Of a stretch of DNA of 60,835 bases, positions 30,419-40,319 are shown piece by piece. Each line of letters starts with the position of its first letter. Position 1 is the first letter of the stretch. Origin of the DNA: Halorubrum sp. (GTDB lineage Archaea; Halobacteriota; Halobacteria; Halobacteriales; Haloferacaceae); contig JAQCNI010000149.1 in the NCBI GenBank assembly GCA_028275105.1, positions 1 to 60,835 on the forward strand, in the 5' to 3' direction. A program made the translations under genes and the position numbers. The notes beneath the pieces were generated by a model. The model searched no databases and was not told the DNA's origin. It saw only the letters and a program-made list of their open reading frames with translations.

Positions 30419-30516
30419 CGGCCGTCGGGCCCGGCGAGTAGGCGGTCCTCGTGAGCAGTTATCGAGACCGAGACTCGGCCGCGTGTGTTTTAACCGTTCG
30501 TCCCGGACGTTCGGCG

Positions 30517-32331
30517 ATGGACTTCAGACACGACCGTCGTGGCCAGTCGGTCGTGGTCGGCACGGTGATCCTGTTCGGCTTCCTGATACTCGCGATGGCG
30601 GCGTATCAGGCGCAGTTCGTCCCGGCCGAGAACGACGAGGTCGAGTTCGAACACAGTCAACAGGTGGAGGGGGAGTTCCTCGACTTGCGGAACGCGATAC
30701 TCAGGGCCGGGTCGACGGGCGCCGCCCAGTCACAGAGCGTTCAACTCGGCGTACGATACCCGCAGCGGACCCTCTTCTTGAATCCGCCACCGGCGACGGG
30801 GACCCTCGAAACGACCGGGGCAGATCCCGTGGAAGTGAACGGCACGATCGCGTCGGGGGCCCACGAGAACGTCGACGCGTTCTGGGCCACGAACCCCCAG
30901 TTCAACACGACGTCGCTCCGGTACACGCCGAGCTACAACGAGTACGACGGCGGTCCCCGGCTGCTGTACGAACACTCCGTGGTGGCCGCGGAGTTCGACG
31001 ACGCCCTCCTTCTTCGGTCCGACCAGACGGTCGTCCGCGACGACCGGATCGCGGTGACGACCCTGCGCGGGGCGGTTTCGGAGAACGGCGTGGAGGCGCA
31101 AAGCGTCGACCCGGAGACGATCACACGACGGCGGGGTACGGTCCCGATCACGGGATCCGGCGGCGACCCGGTCGAGATCGTTCTCCCGACCGCCGCCGGC
31201 AACACCACCGCGCTCCGGGACCGGTGGCAGGCGGAGCTCCCCGGCGCGACCGTCACCGAGGACGGCGACGCGATCCGGATCGCGCTCGACGGCACCGAGA
31301 CGTACCGGCTCGGGCTCTCGGCGGTCGCGGTCGACGGCGGCGGCACGACGGACCCGGCGTACGTCGTGCCGGTCGGCGGGGAGAACGCCGTCGTCGGCGA
31401 CAGCATCGGCGTGGAGGTCCGGGACAAGTACAACAACCCGGTCGCGGACGCCCAGGTCTCGATCGACGGCACGACCCATCGGACCGGCAGCGACGGCCGG
31501 GTGTCCACCGAGGCCGGCGCCGCGGGGACGATCGACGCGACGATCAACGGCGGCGGCGAGTCCTACGAGTTGGTCACGTTCGACGTCTCGGCGGCCGGCG
31601 GCGGTGGCGGCGCGAACCGGACGTTCCGCGTCGACTGGCAGGACGCCGATCCCAAACAACTCACCGAGGGAACGGACGACACGCTGACCGTCGAGGTCAC
31701 GGACCGCGACACCTCGGAACCGATTAACGACGCGAGCATCGACTACTCGTTCTCGGCGGCCGGGAACTCCATGCGGTCGATAGATATCCCGCTCGCCACA
31801 GGGAACCACGACGGGACGGCGACGATCGACCTCAGTTCGAATGACGCGCAGGCCGGCGACGAGTTCGACGTCTACGCGGCCGCCGGCGACGACGTTGACG
31901 TGATCCGGGTCGAGATCACCGCTACGCCTACGATGGCGAGCGACGCCGAGATCACTGGTAGCCAAGCCGGCGCCGGAGGCGGAAGCGAGGTCGAATTTGA
32001 CGTCAGCAACAACGGGAATAATCCAGTCGAGATCAGGGCTATTTCTCTTGATTCAACTGACTCGTCCGCAACCGTCGTCTCGCGTTCGGGGAACCCTGAG
32101 CTGGAATTCGATGGCGCTGGATCGTTAGATCAAAACATACAGATCTCCGGAACGGAGTTCGCTCTGGATACCAATGAATCGATTTCGGCTGGGGCGACCT
32201 CCACTGGAACGCTCGACCGCTTCAGGGACGGCGGCGGTAGTCAGATTGACATGAGCGGCCAACAAGTGACGCTTACACTCTACTTTACTGACGGAAGCGA
32301 GCGGACGTACACGCTGAGCATCCCGAATTAG
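30517..32331 (+). CDS. Haloarchaeal pilin-like/secreted surface protein with Ig-like (Big) domains
   Basis: MDFRHDRRGQSVVVGTVILFGFLILAMAAYQAQFVP class III-like signal; Ig-like DSIGVEVRDKYNNPVADAQVSIDGTTHRTGSDGRVS. Confidence 0.75.
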   Translation: MDFRHDRRGQSVVVGTVILFGFLILAMAAYQAQFVPAENDEVEFEHSQQVEGEFLDLRNAILRAGSTGAAQSQSVQLGVRYPQRTLFLNPPPATGTLETTGADPVEVNGTIASGAHENVDAFWATNPQFNTTSLRYTPSYNEYDGGPRLLYEHSVVAAEFDDALLLRSDQTVVRDDRIAVTTLRGAVSENGVEAQSVDPETITRRRGTVPITGSGGDPVEIVLPTAAGNTTALRDRWQAELPGATVTEDGDAIRIALDGTETYRLGLSAVAVDGGGTTDPAYVVPVGGENAVVGDSIGVEVRDKYNNPVADAQVSIDGTTHRTGSDGRVSTEAGAAGTIDATINGGGESYELVTFDVSAAGGGGGANRTFRVDWQDADPKQLTEGTDDTLTVEVTDRDTSEPINDASIDYSFSAAGNSMRSIDIPLATGNHDGTATIDLSSNDAQAGDEFDVYAAAGDDVDVIRVEITATPTMASDAEITGSQAGAGGGSEVEFDVSNNGNNPVEIRAISLDSTDSSATVVSRSGNPELEFDGAGSLDQNIQISGTEFALDTNESISAGATSTGTLDRFRDGGGSQIDMSGQQVTLTLYFTDGSERTYTLSIPN

Positions 32332-33976: not shown

Positions 33977-34432
33977 ATGGTAACTATCTATGACGTGCCT
34001 GCGGACGCCCTCATCGAGGCGGTCGCGACACGGCTCGAGGACCGGATCGACGAGCCCGACTGGGTGGCGTTCACGAAGAGCGGATCGGGCAAGGAGCTCC
34101 CGCCCGAACAGGACGACTTCTGGTACGTACGCTCCGCGAGCCTGCTTCGGAAGGTCGCACAGAACGAGCCGATCGGTATCGAGCGGCTCGCCACCGAGTA
34201 CGGATCGAAGAAGCGCGGCTCCAACCGGTACAGCGTCCGCCCCGGCGAACACGCCGCCGGCTCCCGGAACCTGATCCGCACGTCGCTTCAGGCGCTCGAG
34301 GAGACGGGGCTCGTCATGACGGCCGCCGGCGAGGGCCGCCGCGTTTCCGACGAGGGCGAGGCGTTCCTTTCGGAGGTCGCGACCGAGGTCCTCGACGATC
34401 TCGACCGACCGGAACTGGAACGGTACGCGTAA
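33977..34432 (+). CDS. rps19e: 30S ribosomal protein S19e
   Basis: MVTIYDVPADALIEAVATRLED...WYVRSASLLRKVAQNEPIGIERLATEYGSKKRGSNRYSVRPGEHAAGSRNLIRTSLQALEETGLV. Confidence 0.96.
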   Translation: MVTIYDVPADALIEAVATRLEDRIDEPDWVAFTKSGSGKELPPEQDDFWYVRSASLLRKVAQNEPIGIERLATEYGSKKRGSNRYSVRPGEHAAGSRNLIRTSLQALEETGLVMTAAGEGRRVSDEGEAFLSEVATEVLDDLDRPELERYA

Positions 34433-34674
34433 CGCTCGGTTGAAATCATTATCGAGTGCCGCTTTCGACCTCGGATACCGTTCGTACATACGTGCCAATC
34501 ACCAGTTCGTACGGGGGCCGACGGGCCGTAACTGAGGGAGCCGGCGATACTACTAAACAAGCTCACCACCAAGATAGTGGTATACCAAACTCGTACACAC
34601 ATCGTTCTGACCAGCTCACGTTGATCCCGTTTCCTACTCCTGGTCAGTTGTGCTCAATGGAACCTACATAATCA

Positions 34675-36228
34675 ATGGGACGAAAACGTAAGCGGGACAC
34701 ATCACGAGGGAAATCGGGAGGGATAGTCAGTCGCCGGACTGTCATTGGTATCCTTGCCGTTGGAGGGATCGGTGCCGTAGGGCTTCAAGGAACCGGTGCG
34801 TTCGATGCGATCAATTCCCAGCGGGAATTTGGTGTGAGTACTGCTAATGATGAAAATGCACTATTGGGTGTAACCTCCGAGGGAGTTAGCGGATTTGATC
34901 TGGATACCGTTACGCTGCTACAACTCACCAACCAGCTCGGTGAACCGTTAGATTCCATTTCGGCTCAAATCGTTAGTTCATCCACGCTGGTGGATAGCAT
35001 TGACGCGCCGGAAGCGCTCGACGTTAGTGAAACTGGCGAGGTACAAGCGACGTTAACGTGCGAAAACAGTGGAACGGTCGACGTGAAAATAACCGCATCG
35101 AGCAGAAACGAAGAAATCGAACTCATTCAGCCGGTTGATGTAGAATGTAAAACATTACCCGTCTGCGCAGCAAGGGAATTGCCCTCCGGAGGCACTATCA
35201 ATTCCATTCCAAAAGGAAAGAATAAGCAGACGGATTCCAGCGTCGTCATCGACAAATCGGGCCAGATTAAGGAGACAATTAGCGGGGTATCGATCGGAGG
35301 TGCCGCGGAGTTCCGTACGGGGAGCCAAGTAACGCTCACTTTTGACGGGAACACGACGATAGACGAATATGTGAAAGTCGACGCTCCGAGCCAGATTGAC
35401 TTCGCTTTGAGAGGGAACGCGGTCATCAAAAATGGTGTGAAGATACTCTCCGAATCGCAGCTTGACTTCGAAATCGAGAATTTCATCAACAACGGGGTTT
35501 GTATCGACAAGGCCGGCGAAGTCAAATTTTCAGCACGGGACGCTACTGTGGATGGTGAGGTTTCGATGTCGTCAACGGATCAAATAAAAATCAATGAGCT
35601 CGTACGATCCACGGTTGGCCCACTAACGATTGATGCTTCAGGCCAAGCGGAACTCGTTAAGATACTTGATTCGACGGTCGGCCCGATCGATATGACCGCT
35701 TCAGGACAGGTGAAGTTCCCGAAATTGGAACACTCCACCGTCGGTCCGATCAGCATTGATGCTTCCGGGCAAATCGATATCATCGGTGGAGCCGGATCCG
35801 TCATTGATGGAGAAATTGACATCCCGGACGCCGGTGGGCAAGTAGCAATTACGCTAAAAGATGGGAGTCAAGTAAGGGGTGGAATCAGCATAACTAATGA
35901 AAGCCAAATAAAACTGGATCTTTCCGGCGGTTCTACCGTGGGTTCCGCCGTAGATATTGATACTGACAGTCAGGTCAAAACTATCATCGATGGGTCAACT
36001 CTCAAAGGCGATCTCGAAATTGACACCGTGAGTCAGGTGAAGATTGCCATGACTGACGGAGAAATTCAAGGAAATGTCACTGTTACTTCAGACAGTCAAG
36101 TAAATGTTACATTGGCAGGCGATTCGACCATTACTGGTGACCTTACGATTGATACGCCTTCCGGGGTAACCGTTACGGGCTGCTCCGGCGTTGAGGGTGC
36201 CGTCACGCCTACAACTGCCTGCGATTGA
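34675..36228 (+). CDS. Exported repeat protein, predicted beta-solenoid with N-terminal haloarchaeal secreted-domain and possible Tat signal
   Basis: SRRTVIGILAVGGIGAVGLQGTGAFDAINSQREFGVSTANDENALLGV; about fourteen 21-22-aa repeats with SQ(V/I)...STVGPISI pattern. Confidence 0.75.
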   Translation: MGRKRKRDTSRGKSGGIVSRRTVIGILAVGGIGAVGLQGTGAFDAINSQREFGVSTANDENALLGVTSEGVSGFDLDTVTLLQLTNQLGEPLDSISAQIVSSSTLVDSIDAPEALDVSETGEVQATLTCENSGTVDVKITASSRNEEIELIQPVDVECKTLPVCAARELPSGGTINSIPKGKNKQTDSSVVIDKSGQIKETISGVSIGGAAEFRTGSQVTLTFDGNTTIDEYVKVDAPSQIDFALRGNAVIKNGVKILSESQLDFEIENFINNGVCIDKAGEVKFSARDATVDGEVSMSSTDQIKINELVRSTVGPLTIDASGQAELVKILDSTVGPIDMTASGQVKFPKLEHSTVGPISIDASGQIDIIGGAGSVIDGEIDIPDAGGQVAITLKDGSQVRGGISITNESQIKLDLSGGSTVGSAVDIDTDSQVKTIIDGSTLKGDLEIDTVSQVKIAMTDGEIQGNVTVTSDSQVNVTLAGDSTITGDLTIDTPSGVTVTGCSGVEGAVTPTTACD

Positions 36229-36291
36229 TCGGATATCCCAGTTGGGAGGCGCTACGACGATGGTTGTTCTACAGGCTGTGCAGGGCGAGTG

Positions 36292-36312
36292 CCTCGGGGC
36301 TTGACCCCGAGG
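36292..36312. repeat. Hairpin CCTCGGGG-CTTGA-CCCCGAGG, IS200/IS605-type end-like (copy 1)
   Basis: 8-bp perfect stem; sequence differs from copy 2 only in the loop. Confidence 0.7.
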
Positions 36313-36364
36313 GTGAAGCCCGTCGCGCTATTTCATAATATTTATTATTACAGCCAGCCATGTT

Positions 36365-36658
36365 TTGATAACGACAAGAAATCAACCCTCAAAGTATGGA
36401 GTTGAAGACCTCAATTCCTTTGCTGGTCGTTTGACAGTTTGGAAACGTGGCCCCTCTCAAAACCCGCTACGGCGGTGCGACAGGGGTTTCAACGGGCGGA
36501 GTGGAGCCGTCGACTCCCACGGACACACGGTGTGTTCGGGTGTTAATTCCAGCCAACCCCATTCGGGGGGAGGTCGGGAGGAATTAAATTCGCATGCGGG
36601 CGCGGTGCCGACCCAAAACGGTGAAGCCTCGGGGCTTGTCCCCGAGGTACTTCACTAG
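36365..36658 (+). mobile_element. Remnant of the 3' end of an IS200/IS605 (IS1341-type) tnpB with terminal hairpin
   Basis: C-terminal reading GRSGAVDSHGHTVCSGVNSSQPH...REELNSHAGAVPTQNGEASGLVPEVLH*; palindrome GTGAAGCCTCGGGGCTTGTCCCCGAGGTACTTCAC at 36621-36655. Confidence 0.55.
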
Positions 36659-37004
36659 CGCTGCTTGAATTCACCGCGAGAGAGCGTTTCTTATGACCAA
36701 CTGTCATTCACACTAGTCCCGATTAGGCTCCCTGTGAGGGATCCTGCCCCGTCGTAAACCGCATAGTGCGATATCAAACGATGGAAATGGGGGGTTGATG
36801 GATACCTCCGCCCTCCGGCGTCGCCGTCGGTATCGGGGTCGGCGGCGGCAGTCGGCGAACGCTTTATCAGAAAGGGTTCGATACTGAACCCATGGTTCGA
36901 CGCACCGAACGACGAGCGGACGGGACCGTTCGCTCCCGGATCGTGGACGAGTACGGACGGCGCTCCGTTCATGACCGATGCGTTTGCGACCGGGAGATCG
37001 GGGT

Positions 37005-37330
37005 ATGACGGCGGCGTGGGATCCCCTCGACTCCCCGTCCCTCCTCCTCGTCGGGACGGCCGGGTGGATCGACCGGATCCACGACGCCCTCGACGGGCGG
37101 ATGGACGCGTCGATACGGACGGTCGGGACCGTCGCCGACGCCCTCGCGACCGTTCGTGATCGACCGATCGACGGCCTGATCACCGAACGGATGCTTCCGG
37201 ACGGGACGGGGATCGAACTCTGTCGAGGGATCCGGGCGGACGGCGCAACATTGCCGGTGATCCTCGGCGCGACCGACGGCGACGAACGGGCCGACGACGA
37301 GCGCGGCCGACGAGGCGTTCGCCGACCGGG
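37005..37330 (+). pseudogene. Truncated response-regulator-like receiver domain (Bat/HTH-10 regulator type), reading into the gdh fragment out of frame
   Basis: [94 protein letters not shown]; distal receiver segments missing. Confidence 0.5.
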
Positions 37331-37587
37331 GCGTTCCCGTCGTTCCGGATATCCTCGCGAACGCCGGCGGCGTCACCGTCTCATACTTCGAGTGGCTTCA
37401 GGACATCAACCGACGGTCGTGGTCGCTCGAACGGGTCCAAGACGAACTGGAAACCGAGATGTTGGCCGCTTGGAACGACGTCCGACGGGAACACGAGGCT
37501 CGCGACGTCACGTGGCGGGACGCCGCGTATATCGTCGCGCTGTCGCGGATCGCGGACGCACACGAGGCACGCGGTCTCTGGCCGTAG
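37285..37587 (+). pseudogene. gdhA: 3' fragment of glutamate dehydrogenase
   Basis: [100 protein letters not shown], matches GDH C-terminus; no N-terminal part in the window. Confidence 0.9.
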
Positions 37588-37616
37588 CGGGCGACGGGGC
37601 GATCCGCGTCCTTCCC

Positions 37617-40319
37617 TCATCCGGTGTTTTTCATCCCGGCCGCGATCCCGTTGACGGTGAGCCGGAGCGTCCGCTCCTCCGCCTCGGTCCGGTCGGTTCG
37701 TCCGAGCAGGTCCGCCTGAAGGAGGTTGAGCGGGTCGACGTACGGGTTCCGGCGGTCGAGGCTCTCGGCGAGCCAGTCGCGCCGGATGAGCTCGTCGCGA
37801 TCGCTGATCGCGAGGACGAGGTCGCGCGTGCGTTCGTACTCCCCAACGAGCCGCGGGAAAAAGCGTTCGCGGAGCTCGTCGTCGGCGAGGGCGGCGTACT
37901 CGGCCGCAATCTCCGGGTCGGTCCTGGCGAGCGCGAGCGCCGCGTTGTCGAGGGTCGTCCGGAAGAACGGCCACTCCTCGTACATCTCACGGAGCGTGTC
38001 GAGCCCCGCCTCCTTGCCGACCGCGTCGAGGTACGCGTCCATCCCGGTCCCCAGCGAGTACCATCCCGGGAGGATGAGCCGGGTCTGCGTCCACGAGAAC
38101 ACCCACGGGATCGCCCGGAGGTCCTCGACGGTTCGGTCCCCACTCCGGGAGGCCGGCCGGGAGCCGAGGTTGAGATTCTCGACGACGGATATCGGCGTCG
38201 CCTGCCCGAAGTACTGGACGAACCCCTCGGTCTCCAGTAACCCCCGATAGGCGTCCCGGGCGGCCGGGGTCATGGTCGTCATCGCGTCGACCCACGCGTC
38301 GGGGACGCGTTCGGTCGGTTCCTCGTTGGCCCGCTTGCGCGCGCGAACCTGCGCGTCGAGCATCTGTTCGAGTTCGCGCCCGGCGATCCGGCGGTCGGCG
38401 TACTTTTCGGCTATCGCCTCGCCCTGTTCCGTGAACTTCACTTGGCCGGTGACGGTCTCGTTCGGGAGCGCGAGCAACGCCTCGTTCATCGGGCCGCCGC
38501 CCCGCGAGATGGAGCCGCCGCGGCCGTGGAACAGCCGGAGGGTGACGTCCTCCTCGCGGCAGTGCCGGGCGATCCGGCGCTGGTTCTCGTACAGGTCCCA
38601 GTTGGCCGCGAGGAACCCGTTCTCCTTGTTCGAGTCGGAGTAGCCCAACAACACCTCCTGGACGTCCCCACGGACCGAGAGGGCGGTCGCGTACGCCTCG
38701 TTGTCGAACAGCGTGCCGAGGATCCGCTCGGCCCCGTTGAGCGCGGACTCGGTCTCCAACAGGGGGACGACGTCGACTCCGCAGTGGTCCGGGAGCGAGA
38801 CGACGTCGACTTGATCGGCGAGGAATAACACCTCGAGGACGTGGCTCGGCTCCTCGGTCATCGAGATACAGTAGGTGTCTATCGCCTGTGCGCCGTACTC
38901 CGCCTGCCAGTCGGCGAACGCCCGGAACCGGCGGATGACGCGCGTCGCCGTCTCCGAGACGTCGCCCGGGTCCTCAACGTCGAGGACCGGCGTGTCCTGG
39001 AGGATGGCTTCGGTGAGGAACGCGACGCGTTCGTCCTCGTCCATCCCGCGGTAGTCGACCCCCTCGACCCCGACCGCCTCGGCGACGGCCTCGGTGTGGT
39101 TCTCGCGGTGGTCCCGGAGGTCGAGCGCCGCCAGCGCGAAGCCGAACGTGTCCACCTGCCGGCGGAGCGGTTCGACGGACGAGTCGCGGACGGCGCCCTG
39201 CCCGTCCGCCGACAGCGACGCGGCGATGACGTCGAGGTCCTCGAGGAACGCGCCCGCGTCGGGATAGCCGCCGGGGCGAACGTCGTCGACCCGGTCGAGT
39301 CGCTCGCGCATCAGCCGAAGCTTCTGTCTGTACGGCTCGTCGGGGTATCGCTCCCGCGTCTCGTCGACCATCGTCGGGAATCGTTCCGCGTCGGCCGCGA
39401 GCGACTCCCCGAGCGCGTCGCCGACGGCGTACCGCTCTCCGTCCTGACTCAATACGGCGGAGAGCCGCTTACACTCCTCGCGGTACTTCCCGAGCACGAC
39501 CGAGCGCTGTCTCTCGAGCGTGTCGTCGGTGACCGCCGGGGTAACGAACGGGTTGCCGTCGCGGTCGGACCCGGCCCACGACCGGAACTCGAACAGCTTC
39601 GGGCAGTCGACGCCGTCGTACTCGCTCGTAATCGTCTCCTCGAACTCCTCGTATGCGTCCCCAACGACGTCGAACAGGGTGTTCTCGAGATACCAGCCGA
39701 CGTTCCGCGCCTCGTCTTCCGGCTCCGGCCGACGCTGACGGACCTGACGGGTCCCCCAGAGGCTCGTCACCTCCGCGGTGACGTCGCGCCAGACCGCGCT
39801 CCGCTCGCGCTCGGTAAGGCGGCGTTCGTCCAGCTCCTCGAGGTGGGTTGCGATCGACCGTAGCTTCGCCTTGACCGTCGACCGCCGGGCCTCCGTCGGG
39901 TGGGCGGTGAACGTCGGCTCGATGAGCACGTCGTCGAGGAGCTCGGCGACCTCGTCCGCCTCGACGCCCGCCTCGGCGAACTCTGCGATCGTCGCGTCGA
40001 AGGAGTCGGCCAGCGTCCCCTCGGCGTCCGCGCTCCGGATCGCCCTGACGCGTTCGCGCTCCTCCGCGAGGTTGATCAGCTCGAAGTACGTCGTGAACGC
40101 CCGGGCGACGATCCCCTCGCGGGTTTCCGAGAGCTCGTCGAACGACTCGTGGAGCGGATCACGGCTCTCCCCGTCGCCGCGGCGGTACGCTATCGCCGCG
40201 TTGCGGAGCCGCTCGACCGTTTCGTACGCTTCCGTCGACGTCTGCGCGGCGAGGACGTCGCCGTGCAGCGCCCCGAGCTCTCGGACGTCCGTCCGCACGG
40301 CACGATTGTGTACGTCCAT
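37617..40319 (-). CDS. ppc: Phosphoenolpyruvate carboxylase (bacterial-type)
   Basis: TAHPTEARRSTVKAKL, GYSDSNKENGFLAANW, LFHGRGGSISRGGGPMNEAL; start trimmed. Confidence 0.96.
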   Translation of the reverse strand: MDVHNRAVRTDVRELGALHGDVLAAQTSTEAYETVERLRNAAIAYRRGDGESRDPLHESFDELSETREGIVARAFTTYFELINLAEERERVRAIRSADAEGTLADSFDATIAEFAEAGVEADEVAELLDDVLIEPTFTAHPTEARRSTVKAKLRSIATHLEELDERRLTERERSAVWRDVTAEVTSLWGTRQVRQRRPEPEDEARNVGWYLENTLFDVVGDAYEEFEETITSEYDGVDCPKLFEFRSWAGSDRDGNPFVTPAVTDDTLERQRSVVLGKYREECKRLSAVLSQDGERYAVGDALGESLAADAERFPTMVDETRERYPDEPYRQKLRLMRERLDRVDDVRPGGYPDAGAFLEDLDVIAASLSADGQGAVRDSSVEPLRRQVDTFGFALAALDLRDHRENHTEAVAEAVGVEGVDYRGMDEDERVAFLTEAILQDTPVLDVEDPGDVSETATRVIRRFRAFADWQAEYGAQAIDTYCISMTEEPSHVLEVLFLADQVDVVSLPDHCGVDVVPLLETESALNGAERILGTLFDNEAYATALSVRGDVQEVLLGYSDSNKENGFLAANWDLYENQRRIARHCREEDVTLRLFHGRGGSISRGGGPMNEALLALPNETVTGQVKFTEQGEAIAEKYADRRIAGRELEQMLDAQVRARKRANEEPTERVPDAWVDAMTTMTPAARDAYRGLLETEGFVQYFGQATPISVVENLNLGSRPASRSGDRTVEDLRAIPWVFSWTQTRLILPGWYSLGTGMDAYLDAVGKEAGLDTLREMYEEWPFFRTTLDNAALALARTDPEIAAEYAALADDELRERFFPRLVGEYERTRDLVLAISDRDELIRRDWLAESLDRRNPYVDPLNLLQADLLGRTDRTEAEERTLRLTVNGIAAGMKNTG

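Follow-up and report, generated by a model that had tools for sequence, protein, structure and literature searches.

A TafC-type N domain joined to a predicted beta-solenoid, an architectural variant of haloarchaeal fimbrial proteins

The gene and its insertion site

The window analysed here, a stretch of 60,835 nucleotides of Halorubrum DNA, holds at 34675..36228 on the plus strand a listed open reading frame with an ATG start and 517 codons, whose product combines a Tat-type signal, a TafC-type N domain and a beta-solenoid. The features of the protein follow one another along this strand. The signal peptide (residues 1-42, 34675..34800) contains the motif SRRTVIG and ends at a GTGA-F cleavage-like site, one base before 34801, where a conserved mature N-terminal segment begins (residues 43-66, 34801..34872) that is common to TafA/TafE-like pilins and is a candidate donor strand. 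It overlaps an Ig-like beta-sandwich (residues 62-160, 34858..35154), delineated by AlphaFold2 strands at 64-158, by the TafC HMM and by Ig-like Foldseek matches. The beta-solenoid (residues 183-512, 35221..36210) has about 15 coils of 21-22 residues with an S/G-Q ladder column, and is closed by a C-terminal cap (36166..36225) with two Cys, C503 and C516, that are invariant in the alignment. Inspection of the C-terminus revealed no membrane anchor. The Tat-like signal, the segment AFDAINSQREFGVSTANDENALLGV and the repeats quoted in the first-pass annotation were all found in this frame. Across all aligned relatives S19, R20 and R21 as well as G41, A42 and F43 are invariant; judged by sequence, the protein thus carries the kind of Tat signal peptide expected of a subunit of Tat-dependent fimbriae, in line with the earlier proposal that it is exported. 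Purifying selection acts on the orthologues (dN/dS about 0.25 in pairs unsaturated at synonymous sites), and we therefore regard the frame as encoding a real protein. It has six Cys overall, two of them in the end cap, and the Cys content of the protein and its relatives is suggestive of disulphides. Two further Cys, at residues ~173 and ~189, are kept in all eight close relatives (PSGC...TDCSVVID, with TNCSVEI in one) and are both absent from the window protein, a joint loss which suggests that they form a disulphide in the relatives.

The gene lies in an insertion of about 3.1 kb (34436..37570), which fills the gap between a conserved gene of 163 aa and the PEP carboxylase gene (34432-37619). 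In 22 of 29 Halorubrum relatives the conserved upstream gene and PEP carboxylase are separated by 180-850 bp and the gene is absent, compared with 3.1-3.2 kb in the window, while the remaining seven hold other genes there (P-type ATPase-like and others), so that the site is variable. A 388-bp MITE with hairpin ends (36268..36655) stands 40 bp downstream of the gene, and the same genome holds two more full-length copies and several end fragments of it elsewhere. It is followed by gene debris at 37005-37584, consisting of a response-regulator receiver fragment (PF00072) and then, in another frame, the end of a glutamate dehydrogenase (PF00208; C-terminal ~93 residues). One of the MITE end fragments lies near an open reading frame that looks TnpB-like by eye and has no Pfam match.

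The deviating codon composition remarked on in the first-pass annotation is borne out by a GC content of 0.503 and a GC3 of 0.504, against GC3 values of 0.83-0.93 in the neighbouring genes. It is not forced by the protein, since the nearest relative (Hrr. laminariae) has a GC3 of 0.48 and most orthologues have 0.76-0.85. Composition and the empty site in relatives together uphold the recent acquisition that had been suspected, and there is good support for a single gene having been acquired or relocated.

The repeat array and its ladder column

Between residues 196 and 475 we counted 14 anchors of the form [SGD]Q[VIAL], mostly 21-22 residues apart. Ten of the 13 gaps between them measure 19-24 residues, which none of 10,000 shuffles reached (maximum 2), and the regular repeats of 21-22 residues are thereby confirmed. 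The earlier count of about fourteen gives way to ~15 coils, and the (S/G)Q(V/I) motif that had been called invariant is a genuine anchor column that admits variants (TDQI, GQA, SQL and, in one coil, AGEV). Structure prediction, which had been proposed as a check, yielded a beta-solenoid with and without an alignment. From the single sequence, AlphaFold2 built a solenoid with a pLDDT of 80-98 over residues ~190-517; with an 8-row alignment, in which seven relatives were added, the mean pLDDT was 85.2 and the solenoid, at ~183-512, was mostly above 90. The coils show 2-3 short strands per ~21 residues, as in a parallel beta-solenoid. In the model with alignment residues 62-160 form the Ig-like beta-sandwich, and the monomer shows no structure at residues 6-61, where signal peptide and mature N-terminus lie. 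A beta-solenoid rises 4.8 angstrom per coil, so that ~15 coils would give a rod of about 7 nm.

A Pfam scan of the protein found no domain, no LamG and no Bactofilin match at E<=1; comparing the protein on its own with PDB sequences gave no match, and Foldseek against the PDB and against viral models gave no convincing match for the solenoid. Since the solenoid has no close solved match in Foldseek, a ligand cannot be read from the structure. RTX antifreeze protein, CsgA and phage proteins appeared as weak Foldseek matches only and were rejected as its family. The top match of the single-sequence model, RTX antifreeze 3P4G, is non-significant (E 0.11, TM 0.26); it shares a regular beta-helix, but the window protein is devoid of GGxGxDxUx calcium nonapeptides. 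Bactofilin (PF04519) and other beta-solenoids likewise resemble it in having short coils, although the coils here are of 21-22 residues, not about 18, and do not match PF04519.

The first-pass annotation had inferred a Gln ladder, and a column of Gln does exist, although it is not universal and probably not a buried ladder that defines the fold. We aligned coils on the anchor, 52 from a Q group and 61 from an acidic group of relatives. Both groups have the same hydrophobic positions (-7, -5, +1, +3 and +5, with +11 less strict) and a Gly at +12/+13, whereas position 0 is occupied by Gln in 86% of the coils of the Q group and by Glu or Asp in 77% of those of the acidic group, and the preceding residue is Ser (76%) in the former and Asp (59%) in the latter. 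Because Asp and Glu occupy the same coil position in sister lineages, the Gln ladder is probably not fold-defining, and because acidic side chains are hardly likely to be stacked in the interior, the most likely place of the column is towards solvent or in a turn. A buried Gln ladder in the window protein therefore seems unlikely, and we infer that the ladder would belong to the surface and be specific to a lineage, and would not form the core of the fold. A single solenoid scaffold allows a Gln ladder to be compared with an Asp/Glu ladder in a salt-loving organism.

The TafC-type N domain and its relatives

The NCBIfam model for the fimbrial protein TafC (NF052521) matches residues 20-160 over profile positions 7-146 with an E-value of 2.1e-24. 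The two proteins agree in the Tat signal, the conserved mature N-terminus and a beta domain of ~120 residues; they differ in what follows, which in true TafC is a LamG/concanavalin-like domain at ~149-364 and in the window protein the ~15-coil solenoid. Taken whole, the window protein stays far below the TafC equivalog cut-off, with 86.3 bits against 410. The match of the N domain, joined to a solenoid where true TafC has LamG, identifies the protein as a TafC coupling domain with a swapped module, and the combination is a new architectural variant of haloarchaeal fimbrial proteins. The earlier claim of an undescribed family thus holds for the solenoid architecture and fails for the N domain, which belongs to the TafC/Tat-fimbria family; clear membership in a characterised family, which was to be checked for, applies to that domain and does not extend to the whole protein, which is thus undescribed only in part. 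Haloarchaeal Tat-dependent fimbriae were given their name only lately, and our search of the open literature on Taf or Tat-fimbriae found no paper.

Across the class, the TafC profile had matches at E<=1e-8 in 236 of 400 haloarchaeal genomes, with 17 loci above the cut-off, all of which combine the N domain with LamG. Pfam assigned LamG to 17 and Bactofilin (PF04519) to 11 of 77 N-domain proteins, the latter matches being on proteins with the same N domain. When 81 N-domain proteins were labelled by periodicity, 24 had repeats of 21-25 residues, 17 were LamG proteins, a few had other repeats, and others had a short C-terminal part or none; since the N domain also occurs with no C-terminal module, it may have other roles. 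In a tree of the N domain most LamG proteins and most 22-residue solenoid proteins separate, one protein with 18-residue repeats sits beside the Halorubrum solenoid proteins, and the labels change 14 times against a minimum of 4. With support values that are moderate, the tree points to a likely repeated exchange of C-terminal modules.

Orthologues that span the full length, with 49-56% identity, come from Halorubrum laminariae, Hrr. halodurans, Hrr. californiense and, in two copies, Halorubrum sp. GN11_10-6_MGM; all are of the S-Q type, and a further genome holds a fragment. Remoter members, whose ladder is acidic, are present in Halorubrum sp. Boch-26, in archaeon SHRA6 and in a few other genera. 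A first contig scan with the single window protein as query had given no match. According to a phmmer census of nine loci of solenoid relatives, TafA/TafE-like pilin genes are present at all nine and a SipW-like S26 signal peptidase at seven, and genes for DUF5305, DUF7344 and response regulators recur. No pilin-like or other such cluster gene lies beside the window gene within the 60-kb window. A paralogue in the same genome, on contig C111, has a solenoid that is short and acidic and adjoins a pilin-like gene, DUF7344 and DUF5305; given the separation of the window copy from any taf cluster, pilins would have to be provided in trans, for instance by this cluster piece. Elsewhere in the window, at 30451-32331, lies a gene for an exported-looking protein of 626 aa that is without a Pfam match and whose N-terminus (RRGQSVVVGTVILFGFLILAMAAYQAQFVP) is type-IV-pilin-like.

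One pilin from the relatives' loci matches a solved structure, the 'Pilin' 9P0A, along its entire length (E 1.8e-15), and a profile of N-domain proteins matches 9P0A in the region of signal peptide and mature N-terminus (E 9e-11); 9P0A was found with profiles only, not with the single protein as query. For window-type proteins the homology is limited to the first ~60 residues, among which the candidate donor strand lies, and the whole pilin domain is not matched; the rest of the pilin domain is thus not shared, and the window protein adds a large C-terminal module. Only three relatives were found in plasmid records, all from Haloferax and of LamG type where annotated. Phage records and viral contigs hold no relative, which leaves a phage tail-fibre or proviral origin unsupported.

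A proposed fimbrial role

We propose, with a probability of roughly 60%, that the protein belongs to Tat-dependent fimbriae of haloarchaea as a minor subunit of TafC-like type, probably a terminal one, whose solenoid serves as an adhesive or spacer module. It would fold in the cytoplasm, be exported by Tat and be cleaved near GTGA/F, probably by the SipW-like signal peptidase that is usually encoded nearby. The freed N-terminal strand would then insert into a TafA/TafE-like pilin in an assembly of donor-strand type, with the Ig-like domain as coupling piece, and the solenoid, in place of the LamG lectin module of true TafC, would point outwards as a stiff ~7-nm rod offering an adhesive face or acting as a spacer. 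The terminal or minor position is proposed because the N-terminus is common to pilins and unstructured in the monomer and the Ig domain is apparently complete; in the model, a disordered N-terminus beside such a domain is as expected for a donor strand without an open groove. Donor-strand exchange or complementation is the way in which TasA fibres and archaeal threads are built (PMC9674648, PMC9715654), and the Sulfolobus thread system has a putative cap protein, Saci_0405, with a donor strand and without an acceptor site (PMC9715654). The TasA/SipW biofilm fibres share exported beta-sandwich subunits and a dedicated SipW-like signal peptidase in the cluster (PMC9674648), and assembly is likened to theirs by analogy; the window protein differs by its Tat-type signal and by the solenoid, which TasA does not have, and PDB searches gave no significant match to TasA.

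The low TafC score and the 60 kb free of pilin-like neighbours count against a fimbrial role, and the latter would suit a secreted matrix or polysaccharide-binding protein that is not fimbrial, in which the Ig-like domain is a generic linker, as such domains are in secreted proteins, and the solenoid would attach to glycan or to surfaces within the extracellular matrix. We consider this unlikely: the N-terminal segment is that of the pilins and 9P0A, the orthologues sit inside pilin clusters, and the resemblance to the RTX antifreeze beta-helix that might speak for it is not significant. Of the several options that the first-pass annotation had named, the surface fibre or adhesin is supported as one; ice or mineral binding, also named there, has no specific support. 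Slightly less probable again is a structural part without ligand, either a fibre base or cap, for which Saci_0405 would be a precedent, or a sheath or spacer made of solenoids stacked end to end. Its coils are indeed very regular and the ladder columns probably exposed, but the invariant Cys-bearing cap closes the end of the solenoid, and TafC has a lectin-like LamG at the equivalent position.

We give the least credence to the window copy being a relic, a once mobile single gene that is now useless in this genome. Such a history would fit an insertion among response-regulator and glutamate dehydrogenase fragments beside a MITE, and the loss of two otherwise conserved Cys; yet the 517-codon frame is intact, as are signal, coils and cap, both Cys have gone jointly, as might be expected of a disulphide pair, and the orthologues are under purifying selection.

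The occurrence of a beta-solenoid in place of LamG on one coupling domain, in a number of species of Halorubrum and other haloarchaea, gives rise to the idea that the C-terminal modules set the specificity of the fibre. Beyond the fimbrial role proposed for this one protein, and more tentatively, somewhat short of an even chance, Tat-fimbriae might be a modular display in which the N-terminal coupling domain stays constant and the effector module attached to it can be exchanged (LamG lectin, mucin-like stalk, Bactofilin-like solenoid, or beta-solenoid of 21-23-residue coils with a Gln or an Asp/Glu ladder), and genes for single effectors, that of the window among them, would pass from genome to genome as cassettes and re-equip resident fibres. 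The Bactofilin matches on proteins with a TafC N domain would place a Bactofilin-like solenoid outside the cell. Repeats of about 18 or 12 residues were also seen behind a TafC N domain, at the loci L038:4076-5656, L024, L112, L113 and L119.
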